From positions 1-53,166 of the forward strand of contig JAFGTD010000023.1 in the NCBI GenBank assembly GCA_016934295.1: a stretch of DNA of 53,166 nucleotides, written 5' to 3'. Shown here piece by piece: positions 10,523-51,944 of this stretch. A program made the translations under genes and the position numbers. The stretch is from Acidobacteriota bacterium. Lineage in GTDB: Bacteria; Acidobacteriota; UBA6911. Every line of letters begins with the position of its first letter. Within the stretch, counting starts at the first letter, position 1. A model generated the notes under the pieces. That model did no database searches. It had not been told where the DNA came from and saw only the letters and a list, made by a program, of their open reading frames with translations.

Positions 10523-10557
10523 TCCCGTTTCCCGTTCAGGGTTCCCCGTTCATGGTT
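10523..10557 (+). repeat. Heptad-phased short repeat (TCCCGTT type)
   Basis: Starting immediately after the TAG stop of the barrel gene, five consecutive 7-base units share the ending GTT or GGTT. The first two are identical TCCCGTT, and the fourth is CCCCGTT. The complementary word CGGGAAA forms the tandem repeat at 13838-13865. See the finding on heptad repeats. Confidence 0.7.
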
Positions 10558-10621
10558 CCTAGGGGGCACACCGGCCGGGAAACGGTAAAGATTACACTTT
10601 TTCGCAAACAGTTGACCCAAA

Positions 10622-10660
10622 AACAGGCTCGGGAACTGAGACCGAGCCTGTTTTTATTTG
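10622..10660. terminator. Strong Rho-independent terminator between convergent genes
   Basis: AACAGGCTCGG (10622-10632) pairs perfectly with CCGAGCCTGTT (10642-10652) around a 9-nt loop and is followed by a T-rich run. An A-run lies on the other side, so it can serve both the barrel gene (plus) and the cupin-like gene (minus). Confidence 0.9.
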
Positions 10661-10684
10661 TTCGCAGGACTGTTTAAAAATCCA

Positions 10685-11101
10685 TTACTCCATTGCGTGC
10701 GGCCCTCTGTAGTTTTTATCGGTGGCGGTGGCGAAATGGAAAATAGGCCGGTCCACCCGTTTCAAAATCAACGGGCAGTGCGAGATGCTTTTCGGTACAA
10801 AAATAACGCAACTTTTTGTGATCGTGTGTGGCTCGTTTCCAATCCAGAACTCGATTTCGCCGCCCAGGTCGGTGGGATCTTCGGGATTGGAGCCGAAAAA
10901 AGTCACTACTTCTCCAAAATCATGCGCGTGACCTTTGTCGACTACCACTACTTCTTTGGTTTGCGGCCAGAACCAGGCGCAGTCGACATAGGGAGCTCCA
11001 TCGAAGACCCCGCCATGCAGGCAATACACGCGGGTTCCCAGTGAATCGGGCACTTTGTTCAAATCCGTGACGATATATTTCCCGTATTTTGTCTCATCCA
11101 T
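10685..11101 (-). CDS. Cupin-like small protein of unknown function
   Basis: 138 residues from the ATG at 11101, chosen because GGAGG lies 8 nt upstream. A longer frame to 11182 lacks such a site. The core GHAHDFGE matches the first cupin motif (HxHxxxE), and a later SISHCPL supplies a fourth histidine in the position of the second motif, so a metal-binding beta-barrel is likely. There is no signal peptide. It lies downstream of, and in the same direction as, the CoA-transferase, 300 bp away. A link to the same catabolic pathway is only suggested by position. I do not recognise the specific family. Confidence 0.65.
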   Translation of the reverse strand: MDETKYGKYIVTDLNKVPDSLGTRVYCLHGGVFDGAPYVDCAWFWPQTKEVVVVDKGHAHDFGEVVTFFGSNPEDPTDLGGEIEFWIGNEPHTITKSCVIFVPKSISHCPLILKRVDRPIFHFATATDKNYRGPHAME

Positions 11102-11404
11102 TCCCCACTCCTCCCCATGCTTTATCGGTGCCCTGAAATGCAGCCCGCCTGTTAGCGCGGCGTATACAGCGGCCCTCTGCATCGCCTCGGTCGTTTCGTT
11201 TACACGAAACCCTGCGAGAAATGCGGGCTTGGAAATTCCGGGCTGTATCAGGCATTATCGAGCGCTGCTATTTAACATCATTAAGCCTGCAAATGCCACA
11301 CACAATAAGACAAGGAAGAAGGTGCGGGAACATTGCTGCTGTAGAAATCTGAGGAAAGGATCAGCACGCATCACCCACAAGTTTTCCAGCGAGGTCCAGA
11401 AGGC
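11102..11404. other. 303-bp gap between CoA-transferase and cupin-like gene
   Basis: No credible gene, terminator or repeat seen. It includes the Shine-Dalgarno GGGGAGGAG of the cupin-like gene just above 11101. Confidence 0.4.
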
Positions 11405-13129
11405 TCAGACGGGAACATTCTCAGGGCTGTTTTCGGTAATCCTGCCAAGATCAAAGGAATATCGTTCAGTCTGATTCCCTTTTTCATGAGAGTCCTGATC
11501 TGTGATCTGTTCTTCTTCTCTTCTTTCGATATGCTGTTTCAGCCTACCCCATGTAGGATAAAAAATCTCCTCCGGCATTGTTTTGAGATCGGGAGAAATG
11601 AGAGGTTTAAATTCCATGTGCGCCAGGATGTCCTTTTCCAGATCGATGCCTGGTGCTATTTCGACCAGGACAACCTCTCCGCCAATCAATTCAAAGACCG
11701 CTCGTTCGGTGATGTAGAGGATGGGCTTGTTGGATTTGGCCGCATACTTGCCGCTGAATGTTACTTGTTCGACGCGGTTGATGAATTTCTTGCGTTTGCC
11801 CTCCTGGGCGATCTTTACTTTCCCATCCGTGGCGACTGCTTTAATGCCGCCGGTTGTAAAAGTACCGCAGAAAACGACTTTTTTCGATGCAGTCGTAATG
11901 TTGATAAATCCGCCGCATCCGATAGGCCTGTTATTAAACTTGCTCACGTTTACGTTTCCGCACTTATCGACTTCTCCCATCCCCAAAAAGGCCTGGTCAA
12001 TACCGCCGCCATCATACCAATCGAACATGGACGGGTGATTGATGAACGCTTCCGCGTTGTAACTCATCCCGAAATTGGGCCAACCGGCAGGTATGCCTCC
12101 CACGCCGCCAACCTCGGTTGTGAGCGTCATCATGTCCGCCACTCCTTCATGAGCTGCTACGGTTGCAAGCCTGTCGGGAATACCGATACCTAAGTTGACC
12201 ACGGAGTTGGGTGTAAGCTCCATTGCAGCCCGGCGCAGAATAAACAATCTCTCATCGAACGGAAGTGTTGGAAGCGCCTTGAGGGGCATCGTAATATCTC
12301 CGCTGAACGCCGGCTGATAATAGATGCCTTCACTCTGCATGTGCCATTCTTGAGGATTCTGGGATACTACGATGTAATCAACGAGCACACCCGGCACCTG
12401 GACTGTTTTGGCATGGAGTGTGCCTGTCTTCGCCAGATATTCGACCTGGGCAATGACGATGCCTCCGGAGTTTTTCGCCGCCTGGGCTACTTGAAGGGCT
12501 TCAAGCAATGCTCCCTCTTTTTCCATGGAGATGTTGCCCTTTTCGTCGGCTGTCGTTCCCCGGATCAGGCTGACATGGATTGGGAACGGCTTATACCACA
12601 GATATTCTTCTCCGGCGAACGTCACTACTTCGTTAAGGTCGGGCGCCTGCCGGGTCAGATCATTCATCTTGCCCCCTTCAATGCGAGGATCGACAAAGGT
12701 TCCAAGACCCACTTTAGTGAGCATCCCTGCGCGTTTTGCGGCGATTTCCCTGTAGAGCTGTACAACAACTCCCTGGGGGAAGCAATAGGCGAGTATTTTA
12801 TTGTTCTGAATCAGAGCCCCGATGTTAGGTGACCCGTGAGTATGCGCCCCGATAAACCGAGTGACCAATCCTTCGAGACCGATAACATGCGGTCCTTTAT
12901 CCTTATGATTGCCCATAGCGGATCCACAGACCAGGGTGAGTTCCTTTGGATGTCCCGTCTTCTCATATCGTTTGGCTACGGCCCGCGCGATTTCCTCGGA
13001 CCACCCGGTCAAACCAATTATAGGTGCACAGATTGTAACGCCATCCTGTATGAGGTCTGCAGCCTGTTCTGCGCTGATCACTTTGGATCCGACAGCTTTT
13101 GTAAAATCGGCAATTTCCGTCTCAATCAT
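11405..13129 (-). CDS. Family I CoA-transferase (propionate/acetate CoA-transferase-like)
   Basis: 574 residues in one chain holding both CoA-transferase halves. The first (about 15-280) has TGWSEEIARAV and a glycine-rich region. The second (about 290-530) contains NLGIGIPDRLA and the candidate catalytic glutamate E339 in TTEVGGVGG. It transfers CoA between short-chain acyl-CoAs and carboxylic acids, typically in fermentation or fatty-acid degradation. The last 35 residues (from about REEEQITDQD) are a hydrophilic tail beyond the usual family length of 520-535. GGAGAG 8 nt upstream supports the start. Together with the ADP-forming synthetase at 394 it indicates acyl-CoA interconversion with energy saving. 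The acyl substrate is not defined. Confidence 0.88.
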   Translation of the reverse strand: MIETEIADFTKAVGSKVISAEQAADLIQDGVTICAPIIGLTGWSEEIARAVAKRYEKTGHPKELTLVCGSAMGNHKDKGPHVIGLEGLVTRFIGAHTHGSPNIGALIQNNKILAYCFPQGVVVQLYREIAAKRAGMLTKVGLGTFVDPRIEGGKMNDLTRQAPDLNEVVTFAGEEYLWYKPFPIHVSLIRGTTADEKGNISMEKEGALLEALQVAQAAKNSGGIVIAQVEYLAKTGTLHAKTVQVPGVLVDYIVVSQNPQEWHMQSEGIYYQPAFSGDITMPLKALPTLPFDERLFILRRAAMELTPNSVVNLGIGIPDRLATVAAHEGVADMMTLTTEVGGVGGIPAGWPNFGMSYNAEAFINHPSMFDWYDGGGIDQAFLGMGEVDKCGNVNVSKFNNRPIGCGGFINITTASKKVVFCGTFTTGGIKAVATDGKVKIAQEGKRKKFINRVEQVTFSGKYAAKSNKPILYITERAVFELIGGEVVLVEIAPGIDLEKDILAHMEFKPLISPDLKTMPEEIFYPTWGRLKQHIERREEEQITDQDSHEKGNQTERYSFDLGRITENSPENVPV

Positions 13130-13586
13130 CCAAATTCTCTCCCATTTTTATTGGATCAAGTAGTATTAGGCTTTTTTTGTGCGGCCAATCGATCCTGCGG
13201 TTATTCTGCTATCTTAATTTCTTATGTTTCTTCGTCCTTCGGTATAAATCGCGTTGCCTGACCGTTTATCCTTATCGGCAGGAAATGTGTTTCGAATACC
13301 ACGGGATTTTCTCCCGCCGTCCGCTGCAGAATTTAAATTATATCATCTGATTCCGGGGAATACCATACCGTGCACTGCTCAGTAGGCGAATCTTGTGTTC
13401 GTCCGTGTAGCGATAAGAGAGGCTTCTGGTGGATGGGAAAAGGGCGAACACAAGGTTCGCCCCTGCAACGTTAATTCGAATTCTATGATGTAGTTACATT
13501 GGGCCCAGGCTCCGCCCCTAATTTGATCCACCTCACTGTCGTTAGTATTTCCGTTTATTGAATATACGCCGATGATAAAAGGAGGC
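13130..13586. other. 457-bp gap holding palindrome copy 2
   Basis: Apart from the GGGCGAAC/GTTCGCCC palindrome at 13442-13462 I see no gene, promoter or RNA. It lies upstream of the CoA-transferase and downstream of tRNA-Gly, both on the minus strand. Confidence 0.4.
13442..13462. repeat. Dispersed palindrome, copy 2
   Basis: GGGCGAAC (13442-13449) and GTTCGCCC (13455-13462) form a perfect 8-bp stem with a 5-nt loop ACAAG, followed by CCTGC. Confidence 0.75.
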
Positions 13587-13661
<75 letters not shown>

Positions 13662-13801
13662 TCTCTTAGATATGCAGCTACCGATAATAGCAAACCCCCA
13701 AACACCCGGTCAACCTTATCTTTATACCGTTACTTCATATGATTGTGAATGAACCGGCTCGGTTGTCGGAGGAAATATTTTGCCGCGGATTCCGGTTTTT
13801 T

Positions 13802-13865
13802 CGTTCCCGGTTTCCCGTTCCCCGTGTCGGGTTTTAACGGGAAACGGGAAACGCTGAACGGGAAA
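13802..13865. repeat. Inverted pair of heptad repeats (CGTTCCC / CGGGAAA)
   Basis: The left arm 13802-13822 has three 7-base units (CGTTCCC, GGTTTCC, CGTTCCC). The right arm 13838-13865 has four (CGGGAAA twice, one degenerate CGCTGAA, CGGGAAA). The arms are roughly complementary and can form a hairpin around a 15-nt loop. The right arm ends 6 bp before the stop codon of yraN on the opposite strand. Confidence 0.75.
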
Positions 13866-13871
13866 CGTATT

Positions 13872-14231
13872 TTAAAAGGCATTCCGGAAAAGCCGGACCT
13901 CTTCTTTTGCGCCTGGTCGGATTACTACAGATACGATATCAAACCGATACGTATACCGGTTCATCTCGTGGTCGGCGATGAATCTTTCCGCCGTGCGCCG
14001 GATGCGGTATTGTTTTTTCCTGTCGACGAATTCCCACGGCTCGCCGAATTGTCCGGACGCCCGGGTTTTCACTTCCACGAAAACGAGCGTTTCTCCCTCG
14101 AACGCAATGATATCTACTTCACCCGCCCCGCTGGAGTATCGTCTGGCCAGAATATCGTAGCCCTGCCGCATCAGGAAGCGGCAGGCGATACGCTCCCCCT
14201 TGCGTCCTCGGAGCAGATGCGGCGCGACCAT
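13872..14231 (-). CDS. yraN: YraN/UPF0102 family endonuclease-like protein
   Basis: 119 residues with the full family pattern: GRKGERIACRFLMRQGYDILARR, then GEVDIIAFEGETLVFVEVKTR, which has the Holliday-junction-resolvase-like E-D-ExK metal site, then FGEPWEFVDRKKQYRI and RFDIVSVVI. The family is widespread and predicted to act on DNA, but its physiological role is unsettled. No clear ribosome binding site precedes the ATG. It lies downstream of cysS on the same strand, separated by a repeat-rich 264-bp gap. Confidence 0.9.
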   Translation of the reverse strand: MVAPHLLRGRKGERIACRFLMRQGYDILARRYSSGAGEVDIIAFEGETLVFVEVKTRASGQFGEPWEFVDRKKQYRIRRTAERFIADHEMNRYTYRFDIVSVVIRPGAKEEVRLFRNAF

Positions 14232-14296
14232 AAACAGAATGTTTCGGAAGATCTCATTCTATTTTAGAAGAATCTGTTGGATATCGAATGTTGAAA

Positions 14297-14338
14297 CGTT
14301 CAACGTTGAACGTCCAACGTTTGACGTTAATCGTTTGA
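14297..14338. repeat. Heptad-phased repeat (CGTTNAA type)
   Basis: Six consecutive 7-base units each start with CGT. The first two, CGTTCAA and CGTTGAA, are near reverse complements, giving local palindromes; later units are variants. It lies in the cysS-yraN gap, whose remaining bases hold palindrome copy 3 and no gene. Confidence 0.7.
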
Positions 14339-14466
14339 ACGTTCCAGGCGCCCGTTATTTTTATGGATAGAAAATGAATCGATAGAAAGCGAAAATCTGT
14401 ATTAATTAGGATTTCAACTTGATTCTGTAATTTAAAAAAAAAGATCGCTGACGATTTGTGTTCGGA

Positions 14467-14491
14467 GGGCGAACACGAGGTTCGCCCCTAC
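14467..14491. repeat. Dispersed palindrome, copy 3
   Basis: GGGCGAAC (14467-14474) and GTTCGCCC (14480-14487) form an 8-bp stem with loop ACGAG, followed by CTAC as in copy 1. It ends 4 bp before the stop codon of cysS on the minus strand. Confidence 0.75.
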
Positions 14492-14495
14492 TGAT

Positions 14496-15890
14496 TTATT
14501 TGATTCTCTTCCATCGAACCCCGTCCCGGGTGTCATCCAGTTGAATGCCCTTCGATGCGAGCCAGTCGCGGATTCGGTCCGCCTCGGCAAAATCTCTGCG
14601 ACGGCGTGCAGCCTGGCGGGCTTCGATTTGCTCGGCTATTGCGTCATCGAGGATTTCTTCGCTTTTGGGAGGCAGAATGTTAAAGACATTATCGACTTCA
14701 TGGATGAACTCAGCGGCGATTTTCCCGTCCCCGCCGCTCAGGGCATTCCGGCTGTCCTGCTGGTAGACGGAGCGGACGAACTCGAACAGCACCGCCAGGG
14801 CGGCGGAGGTATTGATATCGTTGTCCATCGCTTCAATGAACTGTTCCCGGGTCTTCCCTGCCTCTTCTTTGAAGTTGTCGGAAGGGTCTTCGGGTTTGGC
14901 GATTTCATCCATTCGGACCAGAAAATCTTCCAGCCTCTGGATCGATGCCAGCGCCTGTTTCAGCCCGTCGGCCGTAAAATTGAGCTGCTTTCGATAGTGG
15001 ACCGACAGCAGGAGGTAACGGATCGATTCCGGGGAATACCCCTGGGCGAGAAGATCGCGCAGGGTGTAGAAATTTCCGAGGGATTTGGACATTTTTTCGC
15101 CTTCGACGATTAAAAATTCCGGATGAACCCAGTGCCGGACAAACTGTTTCCCGGTGGCGCATTCACTCTGGGCGATTTCATTCTCGTGGTGAGGAAAGAC
15201 GAGGTCCGCGCCGCCGCAATGGATGTCGAAGGTTTCTCCCAGATACTTCATGCTCATCGCCGAGCATTCGATGTGCCATCCCGGTCGCCCGGGCCCGATT
15301 TCCGTGTCCCAGAAATCTTCCCCTTCTTTGGGTGCTTTCCAGAGGACGAAATCCCTTGCATTTTCTTTGTCATACTTATCCGCGTCGACGCGCGCGCCCG
15401 ATTTCGCGCCCGAAAAATCGGCCTTGCTCAGCTTGCCGTATTCCTGATAACGGGAGATGCTGAAATAGATCGATCCCTCTTTTCGATAAGTAAATCCCTT
15501 TTCCTCCAGTGTGCGGATCAAACGCACCATATCCGGGATATGTTCGGTGGCTCGCGGCATGATGTCGGGAGGTTCTATGCGGAGGATCCGGCTGTCTTCG
15601 AGGAAAGCTTCAGTATATTTGGCCGTATATTCCTTGAGGCTGACTCCCTGTTCCCGGGCGTTCTGAATGGTTTTGTCGTCCACGTCGGTGATGTTCATGA
15701 CGTGAATAACGCGGTAGTCGCGATAGCACAGGTAGCGGCGCAACAGGTCCTGGAACACGAAAGTGCGGAAATTGCCCACATGTGCGTAATCGTATACCGT
15801 AGGCCCGCATGTGTAAAATCGTACTACGCCCTCTTCCAGGGGGTGGAATTCCTCTTCGGTGCCGGTTAAGGAATTGTACAATTTCAGCAT
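14496..15890 (-). CDS. cysS: Cysteinyl-tRNA synthetase
   Basis: Charges tRNA-Cys with cysteine in the cytoplasm. The 464-residue length is typical. The class I HIGH signature is HVGN (37-40) after YTCGPTVYDYA, and KMSKS is at 266-270. Zinc ligands are visible as C28, C209, H234 and E238 (the last two in FPHHENE). The C-terminal DALR-type and anticodon-binding region ends WLASKGIQLDDTRDGVRWKR. It is downstream of the glycosyltransferase gene with a 58-bp gap, so the two may be cotranscribed. Confidence 0.98.
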   Translation of the reverse strand: MLKLYNSLTGTEEEFHPLEEGVVRFYTCGPTVYDYAHVGNFRTFVFQDLLRRYLCYRDYRVIHVMNITDVDDKTIQNAREQGVSLKEYTAKYTEAFLEDSRILRIEPPDIMPRATEHIPDMVRLIRTLEEKGFTYRKEGSIYFSISRYQEYGKLSKADFSGAKSGARVDADKYDKENARDFVLWKAPKEGEDFWDTEIGPGRPGWHIECSAMSMKYLGETFDIHCGGADLVFPHHENEIAQSECATGKQFVRHWVHPEFLIVEGEKMSKSLGNFYTLRDLLAQGYSPESIRYLLLSVHYRKQLNFTADGLKQALASIQRLEDFLVRMDEIAKPEDPSDNFKEEAGKTREQFIEAMDNDINTSAALAVLFEFVRSVYQQDSRNALSGGDGKIAAEFIHEVDNVFNILPPKSEEILDDAIAEQIEARQAARRRRDFAEADRIRDWLASKGIQLDDTRDGVRWKRIK

Positions 15891-15948
15891 ATACGGTGAT
15901 GCAGCTTACAGGAGCATCCCTTTCCAGTCAATGCCCACCCTCTCGAAT

Positions 15949-17550
15949 TCAATTTCGCGAAAGTCGGAGCAGCCGGAACGGTCCCTGTTCGCCCAGTATT
16001 TCGAAATACATTCCCTGCAGGTTGCGAATATCCTGAACCTTATTTTCCTTGGTTATTACCAGGTATTGTTCATATTCCGGCAGTATATGGGGCAGCATCG
16101 CCGAATTGTCTATTTTCCCGTGGACCTGGTATCCGGTGTAGTAATGGAGGGAATGGTGTGTGAATCCATAGGTAATAATGGGTTCGTCTCCCTTCCGAGC
16201 TTCAAGCGCCAATTGGGCTATATCCCGGGTGGAATGGTATTGCCCGAGTACGGGAATGGCGAACTGCGCTGCAGTGATTACAATAAGGATCCCCTGAAGA
16301 ACCGTAGTGGCATATGCCCGGGTATATCGACCGCGGAATCCGAATATCACGGTTGTGAGTGCAGGCAGAAAGAAGACAACGGATAATAGAATTCCGATTC
16401 TCCAGTTGCCGCCGTAGGCGGTCTGAAAATAGTACGGGGCGGCAGCGGCTGTAATGATTGAGAAAGTCAGTATAAGAATCATGCCGGTCCGTTGTATGGC
16501 CGGCCGGACGGGGTTTTCCTTTAGATGAGACAATCGAATGCCAAGAAGCAGTGCAAGCGGTGGTATCGAAGGCAGTATATACCCGGGGAGTTTGGAATCG
16601 GATAGTGAAAAGAAAAGCAGAGGGAAAAGGAGCCAGCAGGCTAAAAACAACGTCACCGGATCCCAGTCCCGCCATCTACGGATCTTTTCCAGCGGGGATT
16701 CCGGAATCAGTAAGGGCAGCCAGCCGCTCCAGGGGAAAAACAGAGCCAGCAGAACCGGAAGAAAATAATAGAACGGCTGGGAATGATGGTGCATTCCGGT
16801 CACGAAACGGGCAATATTGTGGTTTACAAAGAATGTTGCGATGAAAGCGTATCCGTTCTGTTTAAAGACAAGACAGAACCAGGGAGCGCATACCAGGATT
16901 AAGATGAAGAATCCGGCTAGGATACGCCAGCGGGACAGAACGTGCCCGCGTTCGTTGAAATACCAGAATAAAATGCCGATTCCGACGGCCAGAATAATAG
17001 CCACCGGCCCTTTCCCCAGTACGGCCAATCCAAAAAAAATATAGGCCGCCATAATCTTTCCAATGCCCGGGTCCTTTCTTACCGCGGCGGCAAGAATAGT
17101 CATGCCGAGTGTGAATGCGCAGGTGAAGGGCATGTCGGTGGACGCACCTCTGCCGAACAGGATGAATCCCAGGCTGGTTAACAATATTGATGCAGCGAGA
17201 AATCCCGCAAGCCGATTTCTGAGAATTGCGCCCAGCCAGAAAACCGCCAGAGCGGTTATCAGTGCGGACAGAGCGGGACCTAGTCGTGCCGCCGTTTCAT
17301 TATTTGGAAGCAGGGAGTAAAAGGGGATGGTAATCCAGTAATACAGAGGGGGTTTTTCCAGCCAGGGTTTGTTCTCGAGAGTTGGAGTTACCCAGGCTCC
17401 CTGCTGGTGCATTTCTTCGGCAATTCTTGCATATCGAGGCTCGTCGGCACCCACCAGGGGAAGCGAACCGAGACGGAAAAACAGCGTTGCAAGCGATATC
17501 GCTGTTAACAGAATAGCCGATCCTGCCGTGTATTTGATGATGGTTTGCAC
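15949..17550 (-). CDS. ArnT/PMT-type glycosyltransferase (GT39/GT83-like)
   Basis: A polytopic inner-membrane protein of 533 residues with about 11-12 hydrophobic helices. The first periplasmic loop carries the hallmark acidic pair in GADEPRYARIAEEM (D36, E37), followed by KPPLYYW, both typical of lipid-linked-sugar-dependent transferases such as ArnT. It probably transfers a sugar from a polyprenyl phosphate donor to lipid A or a protein in the periplasm. Acceptor and sugar cannot be told. Neighbours are groEL (upstream, separated by a terminator) and cysS (downstream). Confidence 0.85.
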   Translation of the reverse strand: MQTIIKYTAGSAILLTAISLATLFFRLGSLPLVGADEPRYARIAEEMHQQGAWVTPTLENKPWLEKPPLYYWITIPFYSLLPNNETAARLGPALSALITALAVFWLGAILRNRLAGFLAASILLTSLGFILFGRGASTDMPFTCAFTLGMTILAAAVRKDPGIGKIMAAYIFFGLAVLGKGPVAIILAVGIGILFWYFNERGHVLSRWRILAGFFILILVCAPWFCLVFKQNGYAFIATFFVNHNIARFVTGMHHHSQPFYYFLPVLLALFFPWSGWLPLLIPESPLEKIRRWRDWDPVTLFLACWLLFPLLFFSLSDSKLPGYILPSIPPLALLLGIRLSHLKENPVRPAIQRTGMILILTFSIITAAAAPYYFQTAYGGNWRIGILLSVVFFLPALTTVIFGFRGRYTRAYATTVLQGILIVITAAQFAIPVLGQYHSTRDIAQLALEARKGDEPIITYGFTHHSLHYYTGYQVHGKIDNSAMLPHILPEYEQYLVITKENKVQDIRNLQGMYFEILGEQGPFRLLRLSRN

Positions 17551-17573
17551 AGCGGATTTATCTTACAGTAACT

Positions 17574-17601
17574 GATTGAAAATTGAAGATTAAAGATTGA
17601 A
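17574..17601. repeat. Heptad-phased repeat (GATTGAA type)
   Basis: Four consecutive 7-base units of type GATTGAA (units 1 and 4 exact; 2 and 3 differ at one position each) are followed by TCTTCAATC, which is inverted to the last unit. It lies between the groEL terminator and the glycosyltransferase gene. The same word family recurs at 51696-51716. Confidence 0.7.
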
Positions 17602-17610
17602 TCTTCAATC

Positions 17611-17643
17611 AAAAAGAAAAGGGGCGCGATAAATCCGCGCCCC
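17611..17643 (-). terminator. Rho-independent terminator of groES-groEL
   Basis: Read on the minus strand, GGGGCGCG and CGCGCCCC form a perfect 8-bp stem with a 7-nt loop and are followed by TTTTCTTTTT. It lies 30 bp after the groEL stop codon. Confidence 0.93.
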
Positions 17644-17673
17644 TGGTATATAGGTTTCGTTTGGTTGACGGGT

Positions 17674-19335
<1,662 letters not shown>

Positions 19336-19350
19336 TTAATTCTGCTCGGT

Positions 19351-19638
19351 TTATCCAAGAACTGCCAGGATTTCATCTTCTCTCATGATGATGTAATCCT
19401 GTTCGTCGATCTTGATTTCAGTACCGGAATATTTCCCGAAAAGGATGCGGTCGCCGGTTTTTACATCCATTGAGGCGCGCTTGCCGTCATCCATGACTTT
19501 TCCGGAGCCGACGGCGATTACCTCGCCTTCCATCGGCTTTTCTTTGGCGGTATCAGGAATAATGATCCCGCCCTTTACGGTTTCTTTCTCTTCAACACGC
19601 TTTACAAGAACCCTGTCGTGCAAAGGTCTGACGTTCAT
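19351..19638 (-). CDS. groES: Co-chaperonin GroES (10 kDa)
   Basis: 95 residues, lid of the GroEL chamber. It has the N-terminal [32 protein letters not shown] with the mobile loop, and the C-terminal [37 protein letters not shown] upstream of the ATG supports the start. First gene of the operon. Confidence 0.99.
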
Positions 19639-19788
19639 ACAAGATCTCCTTTTTTTAATGGGTAACTTATAAGGTCAACTCCACAGGTTTATTCCTCGCA
19701 TCGCTTAGTGCTTCGATTCGCTATTACGGTTACATATTTCTATGTGTGATTCGACCATCTACAATCCTGAAAATCGTTCACTCAGCAC

Positions 19789-19836
19789 TAAGTCCAGAGG
19801 GCACAAATTCGTAGTCGAATTTGTGCATCGAAGGAC
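19789..19836 (-). promoter_or_regulatory. Palindromic hairpin in the groES 5' leader
   Basis: GCACAAATTCG (19801-19811) and CGAATTTGTGC (19816-19826) are a perfect 11-bp inverted repeat with a 4-nt loop. It is enclosed by CTAAGTCC (19788-19795) and GGACTTAG (19833-19840), the latter overlapping the CIRCE half-site. It would form in the roughly 200-nt leader between promoter and groES. It could affect RNA stability, heat response or operator geometry, or be a REP-like insertion. Confidence 0.6.
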
Positions 19837-19863
19837 TTAGCACTCACCCGAGGCGAGTGCTAA
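19837..19863 (-). promoter_or_regulatory. CIRCE operator (HrcA binding site)
   Basis: TTAGCACTC (19837-19845), 9 bases, then GAGTGCTAA (19855-19863): a perfect match to the CIRCE consensus. It lies directly downstream of the -10 hexamer of the groES promoter, as expected for HrcA repression of groESL. hrcA itself is not in the window. Confidence 0.97.
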
Positions 19864-19864
19864 T

Positions 19865-19892
19865 AGTATAAGAGCGATTCCTCTGTTGTCAA
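19865..19892 (-). promoter_or_regulatory. groES-groEL sigma70 promoter
   Basis: On the minus strand, a perfect -35 TTGACA (19892-19887), 16-nt spacer, and -10 TATACT (19870-19865), next to CIRCE. Confidence 0.85.
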
Positions 19893-39227: not shown

Positions 39228-39255
39228 GTCCAAGGTCCAAAGTCGAAGGTCCAAA
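39228..39255. repeat. Heptad-phased repeat (GTCCAAA/G type)
   Basis: Four consecutive 7-base units: GTCCAAG, then GTCCAAA, one variant GTCGAAG and again GTCCAAA. It begins 20 bp after the rlpA stop. Downstream, at 39385-39403, TTGACC and GGTCAA form a small hairpin followed by TTTTCTT, 9 nt before the mobA start. Confidence 0.7.
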
Positions 39256-39413
39256 GCCCGATCTGACGAAAGACCTTAGACTCATGAACAGGTAGTTTTT
39301 CGGCAAAGCTGTTTTCATGCGTCATAGGTACGCATCGTTCTGTGATGGATTTGTACGTGATGCGGCGAGGTTTCGACTTGATATTTGACCGTTTTTAGGT
39401 CAATTTTCTTGAT

Positions 39414-45017: not shown

Positions 45018-45074
45018 GCTGCCGGGGTCTGAAGCAAACAACCTATACCAGTCAATTTAAGGGAAGAGTATCCC

Positions 45075-45974
45075 ATGTCCAATGGATCGAATATCTGTCA
45101 CCAGACGGAACTTCATGGATTGAAGAAACCCCGCAGGGGAAAGGTTCGCGATATTTACGAGTATGAGGATAAGGTATTGCTCGTTGCCACGGACCGGATC
45201 TCGGCTTTCGATGTCGTGCTTCCAACTCCCATCCCCATGAAGGGCGCCGTTTTAACACAACTGTCCCGGTTCTGGTTTAATATGATGCACGATCTCGTGC
45301 CGAATCACGTAATCAGCACGAATGTGGACGATTTTCCGGAAGAGCTTCAGCAGTTTAGGGATATCCTCAACCTGCGGAGCACGCTCGCCGTTAAAGCGGA
45401 TATGTTCCCGGTTGAATGCGTTGCGCGCGGTTATATAACGGGTTCCGGCTGGAAGGAATACAGGGAAAACGGATCGGTCTGCGGCATTTCGTTGCCGGCC
45501 GGATTGCAGGAGTGTGATCGCCTGCCGGAGCCGATCTTTACCCCTGCAACCAAGGCGGAAACAGGGCACGATGTGAATATTTCTCATGAGGAAGCGGCCG
45601 GCATTATCGGCGCGGATAATGCAACCGGGCTCAAGGAAATCACCCTGAAGCTCTATTCCAGAGCCGTGGAGTATGCCCTGTCCAGGGGCATCATTATCGC
45701 CGATGTCAAATTCGAGTTTGGAATTTATAACGGCGAAATCATTCTCTGCGACGAACTCTTAACACCGGACTCCTCAAGATTCTGGCCGATGGCCGATTAT
45801 CAACCGGGAAAATCGCAGCCTTCCTTTGATAAGCAGTATGTCCGGGATTACCTCGAGCAGATACATTTTGACAAAAAGCCTCCCGGCCCGGAACTTCCAC
45901 CCTCCGTAATCGAAGGAACGACTCAAAAGTATCTGGAAGCCTACCGGCTCCTTACAGGCACCCCGCTGATTTAA
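45075..45974 (+). CDS. purC: Phosphoribosylaminoimidazole-succinocarboxamide synthase PurC
   Basis: 299 residues, the longer PurC form. Joins CAIR and aspartate with ATP in purine synthesis. Motifs: RRGKVRDIYEYEDKVLLVATDRISAFDVVLPTPIPMKGAVL at the N-terminus, VRGYITGSGWKEY-like ARGYITGSGWKEY, DVKFEFG, DELLTPDSSRFWP and the terminal EGTTQKYLEAYRLLTG. AAGGGAAGAG precedes the ATG. Confidence 0.97.
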   Translation: MSNGSNICHQTELHGLKKPRRGKVRDIYEYEDKVLLVATDRISAFDVVLPTPIPMKGAVLTQLSRFWFNMMHDLVPNHVISTNVDDFPEELQQFRDILNLRSTLAVKADMFPVECVARGYITGSGWKEYRENGSVCGISLPAGLQECDRLPEPIFTPATKAETGHDVNISHEEAAGIIGADNATGLKEITLKLYSRAVEYALSRGIIIADVKFEFGIYNGEIILCDELLTPDSSRFWPMADYQPGKSQPSFDKQYVRDYLEQIHFDKKPPGPELPPSVIEGTTQKYLEAYRLLTGTPLI

Positions 45975-46043
45975 ATAGCGGCAGGCTGAAAATATTTTTT
46001 AATAACGTATTTTCCTGCTGACTGTTGACCGAAGATGTTCAAT

Positions 46044-46336
46044 GGGTGAACACAAGTTAGCGGAGCCAAACGGGGGTCGGTATCCGTATCGGAATCGGGG
46101 TCGAGGAACCGGGCGAGTACTACGCCAGTGGGAGCGATCCCGATTCCGATTCCGACCCCGACACCGATGAGAACCTGCCGCAAACGGAGCGCTAACCATA
46201 GGCTACAGGCGACGGTAAGGCCGCGCCTGAACCACAAGGTTCGCCCCTACTGTTTCCCGTTCCCTCTTTCATTTGAATCCGAATCCCAATCAGATTACTG
46301 CCTACTGCTTGCTGCAAACTATCGACTGCCGACCGA
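46044..46336. repeat. Nested repeat island between purC and the SDR gene
   Basis: In order: GGGTGAACACAAG (46044-46056), like the left arm of the dispersed palindrome. Then an imperfect inverted repeat of hexamers of type GGNATC/GGGGTC (left arm 46074-46103) and GATTCC/GACCCC (right arm about 46136-46167). Then a degraded palindrome arm with intact GTTCGCCCCTAC (46239-46250). Then TTTCCCG words (46252-46266), GAATCC hexamers, and six consecutive 7-base units of type TACTGC (46295-46336). The last block runs into the SDR gene and encodes its stop codon and last residues. No gene in the gap 45975-46318. Confidence 0.7.
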
Positions 46337-47104
46337 TGATGTCGGGTGCCATCCGCCGTTGATGCAGAGCACTTCACCCGTGATGTAGCCGGAGGCATCG
46401 GATGCCAGAAAGAGTGCCGCCTGAGCGATGTCTTCGGTTTCGGCCAGTCGACCCAGGGGGACCATGCCGGATGCTTCCTTCTCCTTGTCCGGTTCGCGCC
46501 AGAAATCGGAATTAAAATCGGTTTTGACAATGCCGGGAGCCAGTGCATTGACACGGATATTATAGCCGGCCATTTCCTGCGCCAGTTGCCGTGTAAGCAT
46601 AAGTATGCCGGCCTTGGATGTCGAATAGGCGCCGGCGCCCATAGCGGGGGTCAGCCCTACCTGGGATGAAAGATTGATTATACAACCGCTTCGCTGTGCA
46701 ATCATTTGCCGGCCTGCTTCCCGGCAACAGAGAAAAGTGCCCTTCAGGTTTGTGCCTATCACGACATCCCAATTCTCATCGCTGCATTCTACAAGGGTCT
46801 GTCCCGGTATCCATACACCGGCGCAGTTGACAAGAATATCGATTTTTCCAAAAGCATCGATTGCCAGGCGTGTCATTTTTTCAACGTCGCTTCGAAGAGA
46901 TATGTCCGCCTGAACAGCCAGGGATCGGCGACCCCGCTTTCTGATAATGTCTTCTGTTTCTTTCAGTTTCCCGTCGTCGGCCATGGCGTCGCAGACAACG
47001 ACATCGGCTCCGGCATCGGCAAAAGTGACGGCTATAGTCTTGCCGATGCCCCTTCTGGCGCCCGTTACAATCGCTACCTTGTTATTCAGACAATCCGGTT
47101 TCAT
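46319..47104 (-). CDS. SDR-family oxidoreductase (FabG-like)
   Basis: 261 residues, classical short-chain dehydrogenase. NAD(P)-binding TGARRGIG (14-21), NCAG (93-96), catalytic S146/S147 with Y160 and K164 in YSTSK, and C-terminal PLGRLAETEDIAQAALFLASDASGYITGEVLCINGGW. D39 after the second strand (VVVCDA) favours NADH over NADPH. The substrate is unknown (3-hydroxyacyl, sugar or alcohol). AAGGAAGGG upstream of the start. The 3' end runs into a heptad repeat, so the last five residues may be variable. Confidence 0.9.
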   Translation of the reverse strand: MKPDCLNNKVAIVTGARRGIGKTIAVTFADAGADVVVCDAMADDGKLKETEDIIRKRGRRSLAVQADISLRSDVEKMTRLAIDAFGKIDILVNCAGVWIPGQTLVECSDENWDVVIGTNLKGTFLCCREAGRQMIAQRSGCIINLSSQVGLTPAMGAGAYSTSKAGILMLTRQLAQEMAGYNIRVNALAPGIVKTDFNSDFWREPDKEKEASGMVPLGRLAETEDIAQAALFLASDASGYITGEVLCINGGWHPTSSVGSR

Positions 47105-47466
47105 TCATCCCTTCCTTTGTGTATAAAAAGACTATTCTTCCTCAGGCATGCGGCAAACAAAATTTTCCGCATCGTTTGTACCGTGCCCGTTTCCGTATTA
47201 ACCGCAATTTATAGAATTTACGGATGAGGGCCTTGGATGTCACGGTCATTTCATGCACCGAGCGGTAGGCATAATCCGTAATTTTTTCAGGTATCTCCAA
47301 TAAAAACAATAAATAAAAGGCATTCTGTGACGATTAATTACAAGACGGTTTATAGTCGGTTTTGCCGGGGCAACATCTTTAAAGAGATCGACCTGCGTCG
47401 GATTTTGTGGTTTCGGTTTGTGCGAAGCATTCAGTTGGAGAAGAAAATTTTAATCCCGGAGTTATT
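47105..47466. other. 362-bp divergent gap before the HDOD-GGDEF gene
   Basis: No gene, terminator or repeat that I can support. GGAG 7 nt before the ATG at 47467 is the ribosome binding site of the downstream gene. AT-rich stretches around 47280-47330 could hold its promoter. Confidence 0.35.
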
Positions 47467-48918
47467 ATGGTTGCCAATATTCCAGACGATCTATTGAAAA
47501 CGATTCGATCCTGCAGCTCTCTTCCCAGTGCGCCGGCTGTTGTGCTGCAGATCCTCGATCTCGTTCAGGATCCCGAAATAAGTATTCCCAAACTGGGAAG
47601 AGTGATTGCCCGGGATCCGGCTCTGGTGGCCAAGATCCTGAAGGTGGCCAACTCCGCCTGGTGCGGCGTCCGGCATGAGATAGCCACTCTGGATCAGGCA
47701 ATTAATCTCCTGGGATTGAATGGAATTATGAGTTTGGCGCTCAGTTTTTCCCTGGTGCAGAAATTAAGAAATATAAAAGAGAAGGCCTTCGATTATCAGG
47801 CATATTGGCGTCGTTCGGTCATCGCTGCGTCAGCGACTCTTGCGGTCGGCTCGTCTTTAAAGGAGTCGTCCCGGGACGAGCTTTTTCTGGCCGGACTGCT
47901 TCAGGATATCGGTATGCTGGTGATCGGGGGGGCGGTGCCCGATTATGGGAGACTGATCGACTCCGCCAATAATGAGCATGAAAGGATCGTAGAGCTGGAA
48001 AGGCAGGAACTGGGAACGGACCACGCCCAAATTGGGAGCTGGTTTCTGGCTCAATGGGGATTGCCGAACATTCTGGTTGAAGCGGTCCATGCCAGTCACA
48101 ATATGGAGGCCAGTACAATCTTCCTGGCCAAATCGGCCGCCATCGGCAGCCGAATTGCCGATATCTGGATTAATCCCGATACGGACTCTGCAACAGCCTC
48201 AGCGTCTGAGGCGTTCACATCCTATCTTGGACTCTCACCGGAAAAGTTGGATCCGATTCTTGTAAAGACCGCTGAGGATATACCGGAAATTACTCAAAAC
48301 CTGGATATTGCTATTGATGATGCGGCATCGATTGCCAGATTGCTCGATCAAGCCCGGCAAGCACTTGCGGATCTTCATTTGAGAACGATTCAGGAAGCCC
48401 GATTTTTGTCCATCCAGGTGCAGCGAGATACGCTGACATCTTTATATAACCGGGCTTATCTTAATGATGCGCTCGAAAACCTTTTCCTCAGCAGCCAGAC
48501 TCTGTCCCAGCCTCTTACGGTGATTTTTCTCGACATTGACCGGTTCAAGGAAATCAACGACACCTACGGCCATCAAGGCGGCGATGCTGTTCTTGTTTCC
48601 GTATCCAGGGCGATTCAGTCGGCTACCAGGAGTGGAGACACAGTGACGCGTTTCGGAGGCGATGAATTTATCGTGCTTCTCGACAACACCGAAGAGAGCC
48701 TTGGCGGGAAGATAGCCGAGCGCATCCGGGCATCGATCGCCAAAGCCCCTCACAGTATCGGAGATGGAAAGGTAATTAATGTGACGGTTTCTGTGGGATG
48801 GACCACCATGACGCCCGATTCGAATATATCATCGGCCCAAGAGCTCCTGGATATTGCCGATGCCAGCCTTTACGCCGCAAAAGCCAGCGGACGGAACAAG
48901 ATCTCACAAGCTTCCTGA
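47467..48918 (+). CDS. HDOD domain - diguanylate cyclase (GGDEF) protein
   Basis: 483 residues. The HDOD domain (about 10-210) has LPSAPAVVLQILDLVQDPEISIPKLGRVIARDPALVAKILKVANSAW and the HD-like LAGLLQDIGMLV. A helical linker follows, then GGDEF from about 315 with RDTLTSLYNRAYL, FLDIDRFKEINDTYGH and an intact active site GGDEF (397-401). The inhibitory I-site RxxD is present as RSGD (388-391), five residues before GGDEF, so product feedback is likely. Makes cyclic di-GMP. The start at 47467 has GGAG at proper distance; the frame is open from 47407. It converges on the CPBP gene with a 9-bp gap. Confidence 0.93.
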   Translation: MVANIPDDLLKTIRSCSSLPSAPAVVLQILDLVQDPEISIPKLGRVIARDPALVAKILKVANSAWCGVRHEIATLDQAINLLGLNGIMSLALSFSLVQKLRNIKEKAFDYQAYWRRSVIAASATLAVGSSLKESSRDELFLAGLLQDIGMLVIGGAVPDYGRLIDSANNEHERIVELERQELGTDHAQIGSWFLAQWGLPNILVEAVHASHNMEASTIFLAKSAAIGSRIADIWINPDTDSATASASEAFTSYLGLSPEKLDPILVKTAEDIPEITQNLDIAIDDAASIARLLDQARQALADLHLRTIQEARFLSIQVQRDTLTSLYNRAYLNDALENLFLSSQTLSQPLTVIFLDIDRFKEINDTYGHQGGDAVLVSVSRAIQSATRSGDTVTRFGGDEFIVLLDNTEESLGGKIAERIRASIAKAPHSIGDGKVINVTVSVGWTTMTPDSNISSAQELLDIADASLYAAKASGRNKISQAS

Positions 48919-48927
48919 TGTCATTTA

Positions 48928-50346
48928 TTAAGTCAGGGCAAAAATAGCGAGCAGCAGAACAGTGCCGTTATTAAGAGCGTGCGCCGTCATGGGTGCGATG
49001 ATAGAGCCGCGCCATTCGCGGATAGCTCCCAGGATGAAACCGATTGTTGTCAACGCAGGAACGGCGACCCATCCCTGTGGATGAATTACGGCAAAGAGGA
49101 ACCCTGTTAATGCAGAGGCAATGGGCCAGCTCCAACGCAGGCGAAGGTATCCGAACAGGGCGCCCCTGAAGAATGTTTCTTCAACTACCGGAGCCCAGAT
49201 TGAAGCCAGGCCAAACAACAGAATCAGGATAAACGGATCGCTCTGGATTTCGTTAACGATGGGGTGTGTCGGTGTCGTACCCGTGGATCGGGAGATCGCC
49301 AGAACAAGGATGGTCGAAACGGCTATGAGAGGCAATCCCGCGATGTAGCCGATTATCCCCGATCCGGCTTCACGGAAGAATCCCTGACCCAGAGTCCATC
49401 CCATGGCTTTGCGGACATCACTCCATTTCGATCCGCGTACAGACGGCCAGATGAGTGCAAGAGAGACTGCCGGGATTAAAAACAGGGAAGGAAGGATGGG
49501 ATAATCCGGCAGCAGCCATCTGGCCAGAACCGGCAGGGCGAGGAACCCGAAGATATATACTGCAAAGGCTTCCAGAAGCGACCGTCCGGGATCTCGTGCA
49601 GCGGAGAATCGTGTCCGCAGACGCTTTCTCGATCGAAGAGCAATCGCCGTAATGAGCAGAACAAATCCGGCCAACAGCGCAGCTACGATGAGGACTGTGA
49701 ACAGGATAATTACAAAAAAGGTCTTTAGTGCCGATTGGACGATCGCCCGGCGAGCCGGATCCGATGGGGCCATATTCTGGCTCAGAGCCAGTTTCCCAAC
49801 CCATCCGTAACCCTCGATGTCCCGGCGTTGTTGTAGGGAGAGCGAGGAGATCCCCTGTTGATAGAGTTGTTGAAAGAGCGGTACATCCAGAGCGACATAT
49901 TTATTCGGGGGATTGGCACGGAGTCGGTTCAATTCCTGCAGCGCGTCCTCCCGGGAGCCCAATTCCGCCAGGATTGGGATAAGGGAAAGATGATTCCGGG
50001 AATTATCCGACCGCTGCAACATTTCTTCCAGTTGCGGCTTGAAATACTCGAGGGTTCGGGCGTTGCCCAGGAAGCTTTTCATTCCAACGGCATATCTTCC
50101 CATCAATTGGATTGTTAAATCGTTGGAAGAATCGGGCTCCGCCGGTTGACGGTCCGGGCTTTGCGGCTTTTGCATGATTGCGATGGTTGCGAAGATCAGC
50201 AGCCATGCTACGGCGACTCCAATCGTCCACGGACGTTGGGAAGGACCTGGGGATGAGACCGGGCGGTCCGTTTCAGGATTCAACGGATCCTTAGTATCGG
50301 TTTGACTCCCTATGGGATCGGCGGGTGAAGGGTTGTTGTCGGGCAT
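48928..50346 (-). CDS. CPBP-family intramembrane metalloprotease
   Basis: 472 residues. One helix at about 40-58, then a hydrophilic helical region (60-200, TPR-like spacing in MEEMLQRSDNSRNHL... LAELGSREDALQELNRL). Multiple helices follow, ending in the CPBP domain (Abi/Rce1-like) with EETFFRG (389-395), FAVIH (418-422) and HALNN (456-460), the three expected motifs. The family includes CAAX prenyl proteases and bacteriocin-immunity proteins; the substrate here is unknown. It starts 16 bp after lysA on the same strand and is probably cotranscribed. The N-terminal extension is longer than in most members. Confidence 0.88.
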   Translation of the reverse strand: MPDNNPSPADPIGSQTDTKDPLNPETDRPVSSPGPSQRPWTIGVAVAWLLIFATIAIMQKPQSPDRQPAEPDSSNDLTIQLMGRYAVGMKSFLGNARTLEYFKPQLEEMLQRSDNSRNHLSLIPILAELGSREDALQELNRLRANPPNKYVALDVPLFQQLYQQGISSLSLQQRRDIEGYGWVGKLALSQNMAPSDPARRAIVQSALKTFFVIILFTVLIVAALLAGFVLLITAIALRSRKRLRTRFSAARDPGRSLLEAFAVYIFGFLALPVLARWLLPDYPILPSLFLIPAVSLALIWPSVRGSKWSDVRKAMGWTLGQGFFREAGSGIIGYIAGLPLIAVSTILVLAISRSTGTTPTHPIVNEIQSDPFILILLFGLASIWAPVVEETFFRGALFGYLRLRWSWPIASALTGFLFAVIHPQGWVAVPALTTIGFILGAIREWRGSIIAPMTAHALNNGTVLLLAIFALT

Positions 50347-50362
50347 TCGGCAATTATCCCGT

Positions 50363-51631
50363 TTATGTCTTAGAAAGCGACAACTTTTTTTGCTCGAAAC
50401 TGAGAGTAGCGAAATGATCGTCTAAGGTTTCGGCCCTGCGAATGAGTTCCACGGATCCGTCTGTTTTCAATATCAATTCCTGTGGCCGCAGCCTGCCGTT
50501 GTAGTTAAATCCCATGGCGTGTCCGTGTGCGCCGGTATCGTGAATGCATAAAATATCCCCGTCCTCGATCCTGGGCAGGTTCCGCTGGATGGCGAACTTA
50601 TCGTTATTTTCACACAGGGATCCTACAATGTCGACAATTGTCGAACCCTGGGAAATATCCTTTCCGGGGACGGTGATGTGATGGTAGGCGCCGTACATCC
50701 CGGGCCGCATCAGGGCGGACATACAGGCATCCACCCCAATATATTTCCTGTAAATATCCTTGTGATTTATTGCGCGGGTGACCAGTACGCCATGGGGCCC
50801 CGTCATGTAGCGTCCGCTTTCCGTATAGAGGCTGGGTTTGTACCCGATGCGCTTTTCGAAACTTAACAATAGATTCGTGATTTCCGCACCCATGGCTTCG
50901 AGATCCAGCGTTTTGTCTTCAGGCCGATAGGGAATCCCGAATCCGCCGCCTATATTGATGAAGTCAAAACGAATATCCAGTTGTTCCCCTATGCGTTCAA
51001 TCAACAGGAGCAGCATCTCGGCGGTTTGTACCATGTAGGTATGATTAATTTCGTTCGATACCAGCATTGTATGCAGCCCGAAACGCAGGGCACCCAATTC
51101 TCTTGCCTTGCGGTATGCAGCGGGCAGCTGTTCGTCCGTAATACCGTATTTTGCTTCTTCCGGGTTGCCGATGATGCTGTTGCCTGTCCGGCTCGATCCC
51201 GGATTGTATCGGAAACAGATGAGCTCCGGCATTTCCGGGACTTTAGGTATAAGGGAGATATCATCCAGATTCAGGATGCATCCTCCATCCCGGGAGGCAG
51301 ACAGAAATTCTTCTTCCGAGGTGTTGTTAGAGGTAAACATGATATCCATGCCGTGCCCTCCCGCCCGGCGCCCCAGGACCAGTTCGGGAATGGAACTGCA
51401 GTCGAATCCGAATCCCAGATCTTTCATAATCTCGAGAATGGCGGGATTTGGCAGGGCTTTGACCGCAAAAAATTCCCTGTAGCCATCCAATCTGGAGAAA
51501 GCCTGTTTGAGAGCCCGGCCGGTATCGCGGATTCCCGCTTCATCGTAAATGTGGAAGGGCGTTCCGAAATGATGGACGATATCCTGAATGACCGGGTAAA
51601 GCCTGCTTTCAAATGATGCAGACATTGGCAT
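50363..51631 (-). CDS. lysA: Diaminopimelate decarboxylase-like PLP enzyme
   Basis: 422 residues of the fold-type III decarboxylase family. PLP lysine K58 in FFAVKALPNP; PLP-phosphate glycines in INIGGGFGIPY; substrate and dimer-interface residues in YTESGRYMTGPHGVL, DACMSALMRPGMYGAYHHI and the cysteine-containing GSLCENNDKFA. AYHHI and CEN(D-like) are typical of diaminopimelate decarboxylase, which makes lysine from meso-DAP. A related carboxynorspermidine or arginine decarboxylase role is less likely given dapL next door. GGAGG lies 10 nt before the ATG. Confidence 0.88.
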   Translation of the reverse strand: MPMSASFESRLYPVIQDIVHHFGTPFHIYDEAGIRDTGRALKQAFSRLDGYREFFAVKALPNPAILEIMKDLGFGFDCSSIPELVLGRRAGGHGMDIMFTSNNTSEEEFLSASRDGGCILNLDDISLIPKVPEMPELICFRYNPGSSRTGNSIIGNPEEAKYGITDEQLPAAYRKARELGALRFGLHTMLVSNEINHTYMVQTAEMLLLLIERIGEQLDIRFDFINIGGGFGIPYRPEDKTLDLEAMGAEITNLLLSFEKRIGYKPSLYTESGRYMTGPHGVLVTRAINHKDIYRKYIGVDACMSALMRPGMYGAYHHITVPGKDISQGSTIVDIVGSLCENNDKFAIQRNLPRIEDGDILCIHDTGAHGHAMGFNYNGRLRPQELILKTDGSVELIRRAETLDDHFATLSFEQKKLSLSKT

Positions 51632-51695
51632 AATGGTTTAACCTCCTGACTCTCGTGCAATTCCAAAAAACCAAAGATAGTAATAAAAATTTAAT

Positions 51696-51716
51696 ATTGA
51701 AGATTGAAAATTAGAA
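51696..51716. repeat. Heptad-phased repeat (ATTGAAA/G type)
   Basis: Three consecutive 7-base units: ATTGAAG, ATTGAAA and a variant ATTAGAA. Same word family as 17574-17601. Confidence 0.6.
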
Positions 51717-51733
51717 ATTACTATTCATTATCT

Positions 51734-51944
51734 GACTTCTGACTTCTGACTTCTGACTTCTGGCCTGTGACTCTTTTCGAAGGGAAAAGCTGTGCCGGGA
51801 ATCCATCGGCGTCGGGGTCGGAATCGGTATCGAGCTTTTAAAACCGATTCCGATACCGACGCCGATACCGACCCCGAAAAATCACCCGGAGTCACAGGAT
51901 ATTCAATCCGGCGTTGCCGGAGGCCGGGCTGACTTCTGACTTCT
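51734..51944. repeat. Composite repeat: GACTTCT heptads flanking nested inverted repeats
   Basis: Four perfect GACTTCT units at 51734-51761 and two at 51931-51944 flank the element as direct repeats. Inside are CCTGTGACTC (51764-51773) and GAGTCACAGG (51889-51898), a perfect 10-bp inverted repeat. Innermost is a hexamer palindrome: left arm 51808-51831 of GG-N-RTC words, right arm about 51844-51876 of their complements. The right GACTTCT block ends one base before the dapL stop codon. It fills the 314-bp gap between dapL and lysA; I see no gene there. Confidence 0.8.

Follow-up and report, generated by a model that had tools for sequence, protein, structure and literature searches.

Tandem arrays in the window

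The window analysed here, a stretch of 53,166 nucleotides, is contig 53 of the 5.45-Mb genome of an uncultured acidobacterium (343 contigs, about 94% complete). Its intergenic regions carry arrays of short tandem units, which a first-pass annotation had read as many unrelated words with a strict 7-nt period placed at gene ends. Heptanucleotide repeats are over-represented in many bacteria and have no accepted cause. We grouped the arrays by unit into families, namely F1 (RATTNNA), F2 (ACGTTNN), F3 (CTGACTT), F4 (the GTTCCCC/TCCCGTT word) and the dispersed element E6 with its TCGGNN hexads; the four large families used for the tests of core, spacer and descent were F1, F2, F6 and F8. The window contains the following features.

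10523..10559, plus strand: weak heptads of the F4 word (GTTCCCC/TCCCGTT), directly 3' of the stop of the open reading frame (ORF) 9848-10522
13802..13825, plus strand: left arm of an F4 inverted pair, CGTTCCCGGTTTCCCGTTCCCCGT
13836..13867, minus strand: right arm of the F4 pair (AACGGGAAACGGGAAACG...), ending 4-5 bp from the stop of ORF 13872-14231 (minus strand)
14295..14344, plus strand: self-complementary F2 heptads (ACGTTNN) in the gap between cysS and its neighbour
14478..14491, minus strand: GTAG-tagged palindrome end AGGTTCGCCCCTAC, sharing its gap with the F2 array
17574..17610, plus strand: F1 (RATTNNA) hairpin downstream of groEL, followed by a G+C-rich palindrome at 17621-17644
39228..39256, plus strand: GTCCAAA heptads, 20 bp past the stop of an RlpA-type gene
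46077..46167, minus strand: inverted pair of TCGGNN hexads related to E6, absent from the list of the first-pass annotation
46237..46250, minus strand: GTAG-tagged palindrome end adjoining the hexad pair 46077..46167
46295..46318, plus strand: weak TACTGCC-like heptads, ending at the stop of ORF 46319-47104 (minus strand)
51686..51720, plus strand: degenerate F1 array
51731..51762, plus strand: F3 heptads (CTGACTT) forming the left end of E6
51762..51940, plus strand: dispersed element E6, about 190 bp long, its inverted arms made of TCGGNN/NNCCGA hexads
51806..51877, plus strand: inverted hexad arms of E6 flanking the loop AGCTTTTAAAA
51929..51944, plus strand: CTGACTT heptads at the right end of E6, beside the dapL stop (ORF 51946-53166, minus strand)

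The repeats at 13802-13825, 13836-13867, 14295-14328, 17574-17601, 39228-39255, 51686-51717, 51731-51762 and 51929-51944 were present. Two further loci proposed earlier were weak, the one at 10523 with 21 of 44 lag-7 matches over 10515-10565, read as a 14-mer by Tandem Repeats Finder (TRF), and the one at 46295 with 16 of 34 over 46285-46325. A scan of the window against Rfam at the gathering threshold matched a tRNA only.

Lag-7 excess and range of periods

The excess of 7-nt periodicity exceeded chance both in the window and in genome pieces taken without regard to the arrays, with dinucleotide-preserving shuffles as the control. Stretches of 14 bases with at least 12 lag-7 matches numbered 22 in the intergenic DNA of the window (shuffle mean 1.1, maximum 6, 10 shuffles). 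The unselected set comprised 16 pieces chosen by contig number alone (92 gaps in 186 kb; C240, C252, C324 and C343, contigs with listed hits, were left out). Such stretches numbered 53 there at lag 7 (0.07 in 60 shuffles), 4 each at lags 6 and 9, and 6 at lag 12, with none at lag 5 or lag 8. The set contains only 4 period-7 arrays, and a single 67-bp array yields 40 of the 53 counts. An origin of the heptad arrays from sequence composition was rejected on the basis of these comparisons. Whole-genome searches with triple words, allowing up to 3 mismatches and using the reversed word as control, found 166 places for GATTGAA (15 for the reversed word) and 202 for GTTGAAC (9 for the reversed word).

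The period is 6 to 8 nt rather than strictly 7, as is evident from the hexad pairs of the window at 46077-46167 and 51806-51877. A 1.21-Mb sample of the genome, which consists mostly of contigs picked for having hits and whose densities are thus not genome averages, contained 171 arrays of period 7, 37 of period 6, 29 of period 8 and 2 of period 5. Chains of at least three ACGTT cores, followed over spacings of 5 to 12, occurred 53 times at 7, 20 times at 8 and nowhere else; chains of the [AG]ATT core occurred 67 times at 7 and at most 7 times at any other spacing, and those of the TCGG core 43 times at 6, 23 times at 12, twice at 9 and at no other spacing. Several words do share a short period, as the first-pass annotation had claimed, and core and step are held better than the spacers, but one fixed value of seven was not borne out.

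The relatives use other words and steps. Hexad arrays outnumbered heptad arrays in the pieces of two genus-mates, 17 to 6 in G001, where the words were TCGGNN at 6 and AAATCGT, and 9 to 5 in G008. The relative G031 had GAACGGT, AAACTGAC at a step of 8 and also two inverted pairs at period 9, and G042 had GAACTTT. Around cysS, 80 named loci, in which coding sequence was not separated, held 20 arrays of period 7 (9 loci) and 21 of period 9 (17 loci), with 5 inverted pairs at period 7 and 1 at period 8. At L224:368-628 a unit of about 117 bp occurs three times in direct orientation, every copy made up of an AACGTNNN octad array with AAAAAAGCCTTCGG after it.

Inverted pairing and unit anatomy

Arrays of periods 6 and 7 are frequently paired in inverted orientation. 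The 1.21-Mb sample contained 27 inverted versus 7 direct pairs at period 7 (15 versus 6 loci) and 6 versus 0 at period 6; these tallies count combinations of arrays rather than elements, and a single locus (L216) contributes 8 of the 27. No inverted pairs were found in this sample at period 5 or at periods 9-16. The polarity of neighbouring arrays was fixed in two families, being plus-minus (+-) in 13 of 15 cases for F1 and 15 of 15 for F6, the latter comprising two distinct arm types. Five stretches folded better than every one of their 200 shuffles.

In all four large families the unit is composed of a core of 4-5 nt and 2-3 variable spacer bases. Across E6 copies (14 kept of 105 anchored candidates) column conservation was 0.93 in the core versus 0.82 in the spacer. 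For F2 the penultimate core columns reached 0.8-0.9 and the adjoining spacers 0.5-0.6, in a comparison whose columns are partly fixed by anchor and filter, the filter fixing the last core. Since conservation across copies is higher in the core than in the spacer, a binding protein with a spacing of one unit, akin to the heptad-spaced protein put forward in the first-pass annotation, may be involved.

Binding to 7-bp heptads is a property of ribbon-helix-helix (RHH) proteins, omega of pSM19035 being an example. The arrays might be iterated operators, in which the core is read by a protein whose sub-sites are spaced by one unit, the array pairs serving as its regulatory or chromosome-organizing sites. 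Conserved cores next to variable spacers and the fixed polarity of F1 and F6 are in agreement with this explanation, and the same reading has been proposed for the paired 7-8 nt arrays of Geobacter metallireducens (PMC2700814). It is rather unlikely, since at least five words in one genome would call for several proteins, a single core occurs at both 7 and 8, and the gap that could be compared differs even in the genus-mate G009.

Common descent and slippage

If local slippage, favouring a step near 7 nt and able to act on any word, had built the arrays, neighbouring units should resemble each other. This signature was not found in the spacers of the four large families. Among 3000 order-shuffles, 2282 (F1), 2928 (F2), 293 (F6) and 1069 (F8) reached the observed lag-1 similarity, which in no family was significantly above that of shuffled order; F2 tends in the opposite direction and F6 leans toward neighbour similarity. 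What was found instead is agreement of units at the same index between different loci. Counted from the inner edge, it was reached by 5 (F1), 0 (F2), 0 (F6) and 21 (F8) of 1000 shuffles; counted from the outer edge, it was seen in F6 alone. Together with the sequence shared beyond the arrays in E6 and F2, this unit order is best read as loci of a family being copies of a founder arm and not separate products of slippage. The view of the loci as independent inventions is thus untenable, as the families share arm descent, two of them sequence outside the arrays and two a fixed polarity.

Some results do favour slippage. One family of G031 showed neighbour similarity of its spacers (33 of 3000 shuffles), and in the G031 and G042 pieces, which are rich in hits, period 7 leads with other words. 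When whole units were compared, adjacent units in F1- and F2-type arrays and in others were more similar than in shuffled order (0 of 1000 for the former two). The family assignment in this test mixed words, and the entropies derived from it were discarded; we attribute the positive outcome to decaying array ends and mixed families, yet it points the other way. Long heptad arrays of other bacteria at L128:7241-7332 (labelled Deltaproteobacteria) and L088:7272-7406 seem, by eye, to shift their word gradually while the step stays 7, which would fit sequential copying with errors. A polymerase footprint as the cause of heptad abundance is also a published idea, that of Mrazek (2007) as described in the relevant passages of PMC4679880 and PMC4692102. 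Slippage would however not predict inverted pairing or fixed polarity. Also against it are the use of one core at 7 as well as 8, the predominance of hexads in the G001 and G008 pieces, and the 80 named loci, in which period 9 is as frequent as period 7 (21 versus 20 arrays). Overall, the slippage machine suggested in the first-pass annotation is an unlikely source of the arrays.

Dispersed elements bounded by heptads and palindromes

Two families share sequence beyond their arrays. E6 had 23 matches in the 1.21-Mb sample, 17 of which, judged by eye, share non-repetitive flanks beyond the hexads (5 of these 17 are cut by contig ends); the remaining six aligned in the hexads only or belonged to other subfamilies. 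Five further copies scored in the genome were 90-94% identical. Many E6 copies end in CTGACTT-type heptads. F2 had 94 matches in the genome, with many places counted on both strands and 40 of 125 candidates scored. A group of near-identical F2 copies forms an element bounded by GTAGGGGCGAACCT and AGGTTCGCCCCTAC; this one subfamily, a recent one, has defined ends.

The ends of this subfamily are GTAG-tagged palindromes. With up to 3 mismatches the palindrome GTAGGGGCGAACCTNGTGTTCGCCC occurred at 209 places of the genome and its reversed control at none. It lay on the array side of 9 of the 13 F2 loci that were fetched and at both ends of 4. In the genome sample, neighbouring palindromes within 450 bp were in +- order in 16 of 23 cases. 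Intervals running from GTAG to CTAC, which were chosen by that sequence, had lengths of 76, 85-88, 122-133, 230 and 263-292, and the flanks of 18 distinct intervals were unlike each other. As in miniature inverted-repeat transposable elements (MITEs), terminal inverted repeats (GTAGGGGCGAACCT ... AGGTTCGCCCCTAC) were present, at 4 of the 13 F2 loci and in the 18 distinct intervals; inspection of 20 rows (18 distinct) by eye gave no common direct flank indicative of a target-site duplication.

Part of F2 also has the GTAG tag, short imperfect palindrome and high copy number that characterize repetitive extragenic palindromic (REP) sequences and the REP doublets forming hairpins (REPINs). A further mark of this class is a REP-associated tyrosine transposase (RAYT) gene with REPs at its flanks. 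The genome has three Y1_Tnp genes, whose matched parts of 107-113 aa, scored in place of the whole proteins, reached 46-47 bits on the RAYT profile (cut-off 80). Neither a REP nor a GTAG palindrome was found at the three loci (3-4 kb each), and these genes were dismissed as RAYT candidates, being distant homologues with none near REPs. Since a REP-flanked RAYT was not found in this assembly of about 94% completeness, the GTAG-bounded subfamily is not filed as REPIN, though it is REPIN-like. Two far +- intervals between opposite arrays (L073 and L230) were considered as autonomous copies and rejected; their six ORFs include no transposase and matched queuosine synthesis, a YmdB-type protein, a zinc finger and DUF4348, or had weak or no matches.

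Relatives and placement relative to genes

Numbers of matched genomes given here include the query genome. The GTAG palindrome was matched in 8 of 60 genomes, with many copies in this genome, G009, G021 and G036 and a single match in each of the other four. For E6, with scoring limited to the six best candidates per genome, 12 of 120 genomes gave a match; apart from this genome G009 alone matched most of the element, the others mainly its hexads. GTTGAAC arrays were matched in 13 of 60 genomes and in none of eight of the nine genus-mates. Across 297 genomes of the phylum, CTGACTT arrays occurred in 46 and GATTGAA arrays in 30. A few genomes matched the reversed control word, some more often than the word itself; hence reversed words occur as arrays too.

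Corresponding sites in relatives were found without the arrays. Judged by DapL and PurC (86 and 88%), the genus-mate nearest to this genome is G009; its GroEL match is the lowest of the nine genus-mates (83%) and perhaps a paralogue. The gap between lysA and dapL on the syntenic G009 contig contains no array, and the purC-side gap on G009 contig 294 (L325/L326) has three GTAG palindromes 91 bp apart where the window has hexads. The cysS-side gap is 219-224 bp longer here than in G003, G004, G006, G007 and G008.

The arrays are mostly intergenic. Only 9 of 167 merged arrays (period 6-8) were located wholly within ORFs of at least 150 aa, and 113 could be placed in gaps, for which crude ORFs were used. 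Head-to-tail 7-nt units in mostly intergenic positions are also the mark of short tandemly repeated repetitive (STRR) sequences and long simple sequence repeats (LSSRs). The proposed position at gene ends held for 5 of the 9 blocks named earlier, whose distance to an ORF stop is no more than about 20 bp (13802/13838 taken as one). The bias in the genome as a whole was weak: 67 of the 113 placed arrays had a stop as their nearer boundary, versus 58 of 113 random points. Array density per kb was 0.85 in convergent, 0.65 in codirectional and 0.49 in divergent gaps. This peak in convergent gaps would suit arrays that are merely fast-evolving 3'-end hairpins acting as terminators or RNA stabilizers. 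Strong predicted folds are in line with this, as is the gap 3' of groEL, where, judged by eye, five different palindromes were present among seven genomes, with those of G004, G006 and G007 similar to each other. In G001, also by eye, two heptad arrays enclose a terminator-like palindrome in this gap. Given the weak stop bias, the 21 of 113 placed arrays in divergent gaps and the long sequence that E6 and F2 copies have in common, we regard this explanation as quite improbable.

Proposed origin of the arrays

Taken together, the arrays probably represent the arms or the ends of short dispersed elements, non-coding and hairpin-forming, that belong to several families and inherited their period from a founder, a reading to which we give a probability of roughly 0.68. 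The arms of each founder would already have been made of a core of 4-5 nt recurring every 6, 7 or 8 nt with variable spacers, and each family would have spread through copying of its founder, the period staying constant inside a family because it was inherited. The GTAG-bounded subfamily may have spread by a REPIN-like single-strand route. Two candidates could account for the maintenance of the core and for the step, namely iterated reading by a mobilizing or a hairpin-binding protein and a requirement for pairing irrespective of register. If many arrays are inherited hairpin arms, the number of loci exaggerates how often arrays arose independently, and what then needs explaining is the 6-8 nt step of the arms.

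A number of results weigh against this origin. Octad pairs in the 1.21-Mb sample were mostly direct (1-2 inverted versus 5 direct), +- polarity was unclear in F2 (2 of 4) and F8 (3 of 5), and most F1 arrays had no detected partner (58 arrays, 10 +- pairs). The F1 element spacers were mostly unrelated, with 1 weak match among 10, so that descent of F1 rests on the arms. Chains of the F3 core CTG[AG] numbered 8 at spacing 7 and 9 each at 9 and 12. Conservation of arms by pairing was tried in a mirror test and rejected, arms within one element being no more alike than arms of different elements, which speaks against a hairpin kept by compensatory change. Concerning the ends, the array-side palindrome was missing from 4 of the 13 F2 loci, a period-7 array was present in only 3 of the 16 intervals of the sample that are bounded by REPs, and neighbouring palindromes in G009 were mostly direct (+- in 4 of 20). 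A mobilizing gene was not found in a transposase search confined to the Y1 type. The whole-unit adjacency described above belongs here as well.

A more general possibility is that small mobile hairpins with stems of iterated 6-8 nt cores are widespread, that their step is set by hairpin- or single-strand-binding machinery which many lineages have in common, and that new words keep arising and spreading at an unchanged step. This is a doubtful reading; were it true, it would explain the long-standing excess of heptanucleotides in bacteria.

Comparison with known repeat systems

The GGGAATC heptamers of Xanthomonas and the G-rich heptamers of Nostoc are, like the arrays described here, intergenic with a degenerate unit (PMC4692102), and in Xanthomonas two sites were convergent in 70 cases among 186 repeat patterns and in 75 among 183 (PMC4692102). 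In those systems one word was studied, whereas our genome has several words with periods of 6-8 that form parts of dispersed elements. Furthermore, 83% of the Xanthomonas repeats keep their gene context between two species (PMC4692102), while arrays were missing here at the compared gap of a genus-mate. Geobacter metallireducens comes close in having opposite-strand pairs of short tandem units at variable distance, with several classes per genome (PMC2700814); these were not identified in G. sulfurreducens and were interpreted as putative sites of a global regulator, possibly of IHF/HU type (PMC2700814), in contrast to the arm descent and ends seen for some families here.

REPINs and GTAG-REPs resemble our palindromes in the tag, high copy number and hairpin formation (PMC3116915, PMC3733652), the palindromes being often inverted here. 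They differ from our one subfamily of about 263-292 bp by its heptad-armed interior and by the REP-flanked RAYT, which was not found in our genome. The TAACTGA heptamers of Beggiatoaceae and some cyanobacteria are intergenic heptanucleotides with a similarly scattered distribution; they involve one word, which in the genome studied lies for the most part immediately before start codons and is almost never inverted (PMC4679880). Constant-size, variable-sequence tandem repeats of Bacillus also keep their size while the sequence varies between families, but with units of 20-21 or 52 nt (PMC8161180).

Heptamer excess, inverted pairs and multi-class paired arrays have already been published (PMC4692102, PMC4679880, PMC2700814). 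New are the presence of several core-plus-spacer families in one genome, their common descent, the link to a REP-bounded element and the missing slippage signature. A description of this combination was not found in the open-licence literature.

Additional observations

The CysS genes at L085, L086, L098, L102, L109 and L123 are close to bacterial ones and lie on archaea-labelled contigs, which are perhaps misbinned. Within the window, the segment 47116-48941 with ORF 47407-48918 is missing between the same neighbours in G009. A 288-bp tandem repeat (3.4 copies, 75% matches) is located at 7049-8024 within ORF 6668-9571, and the relative G003 matches several copies of it.

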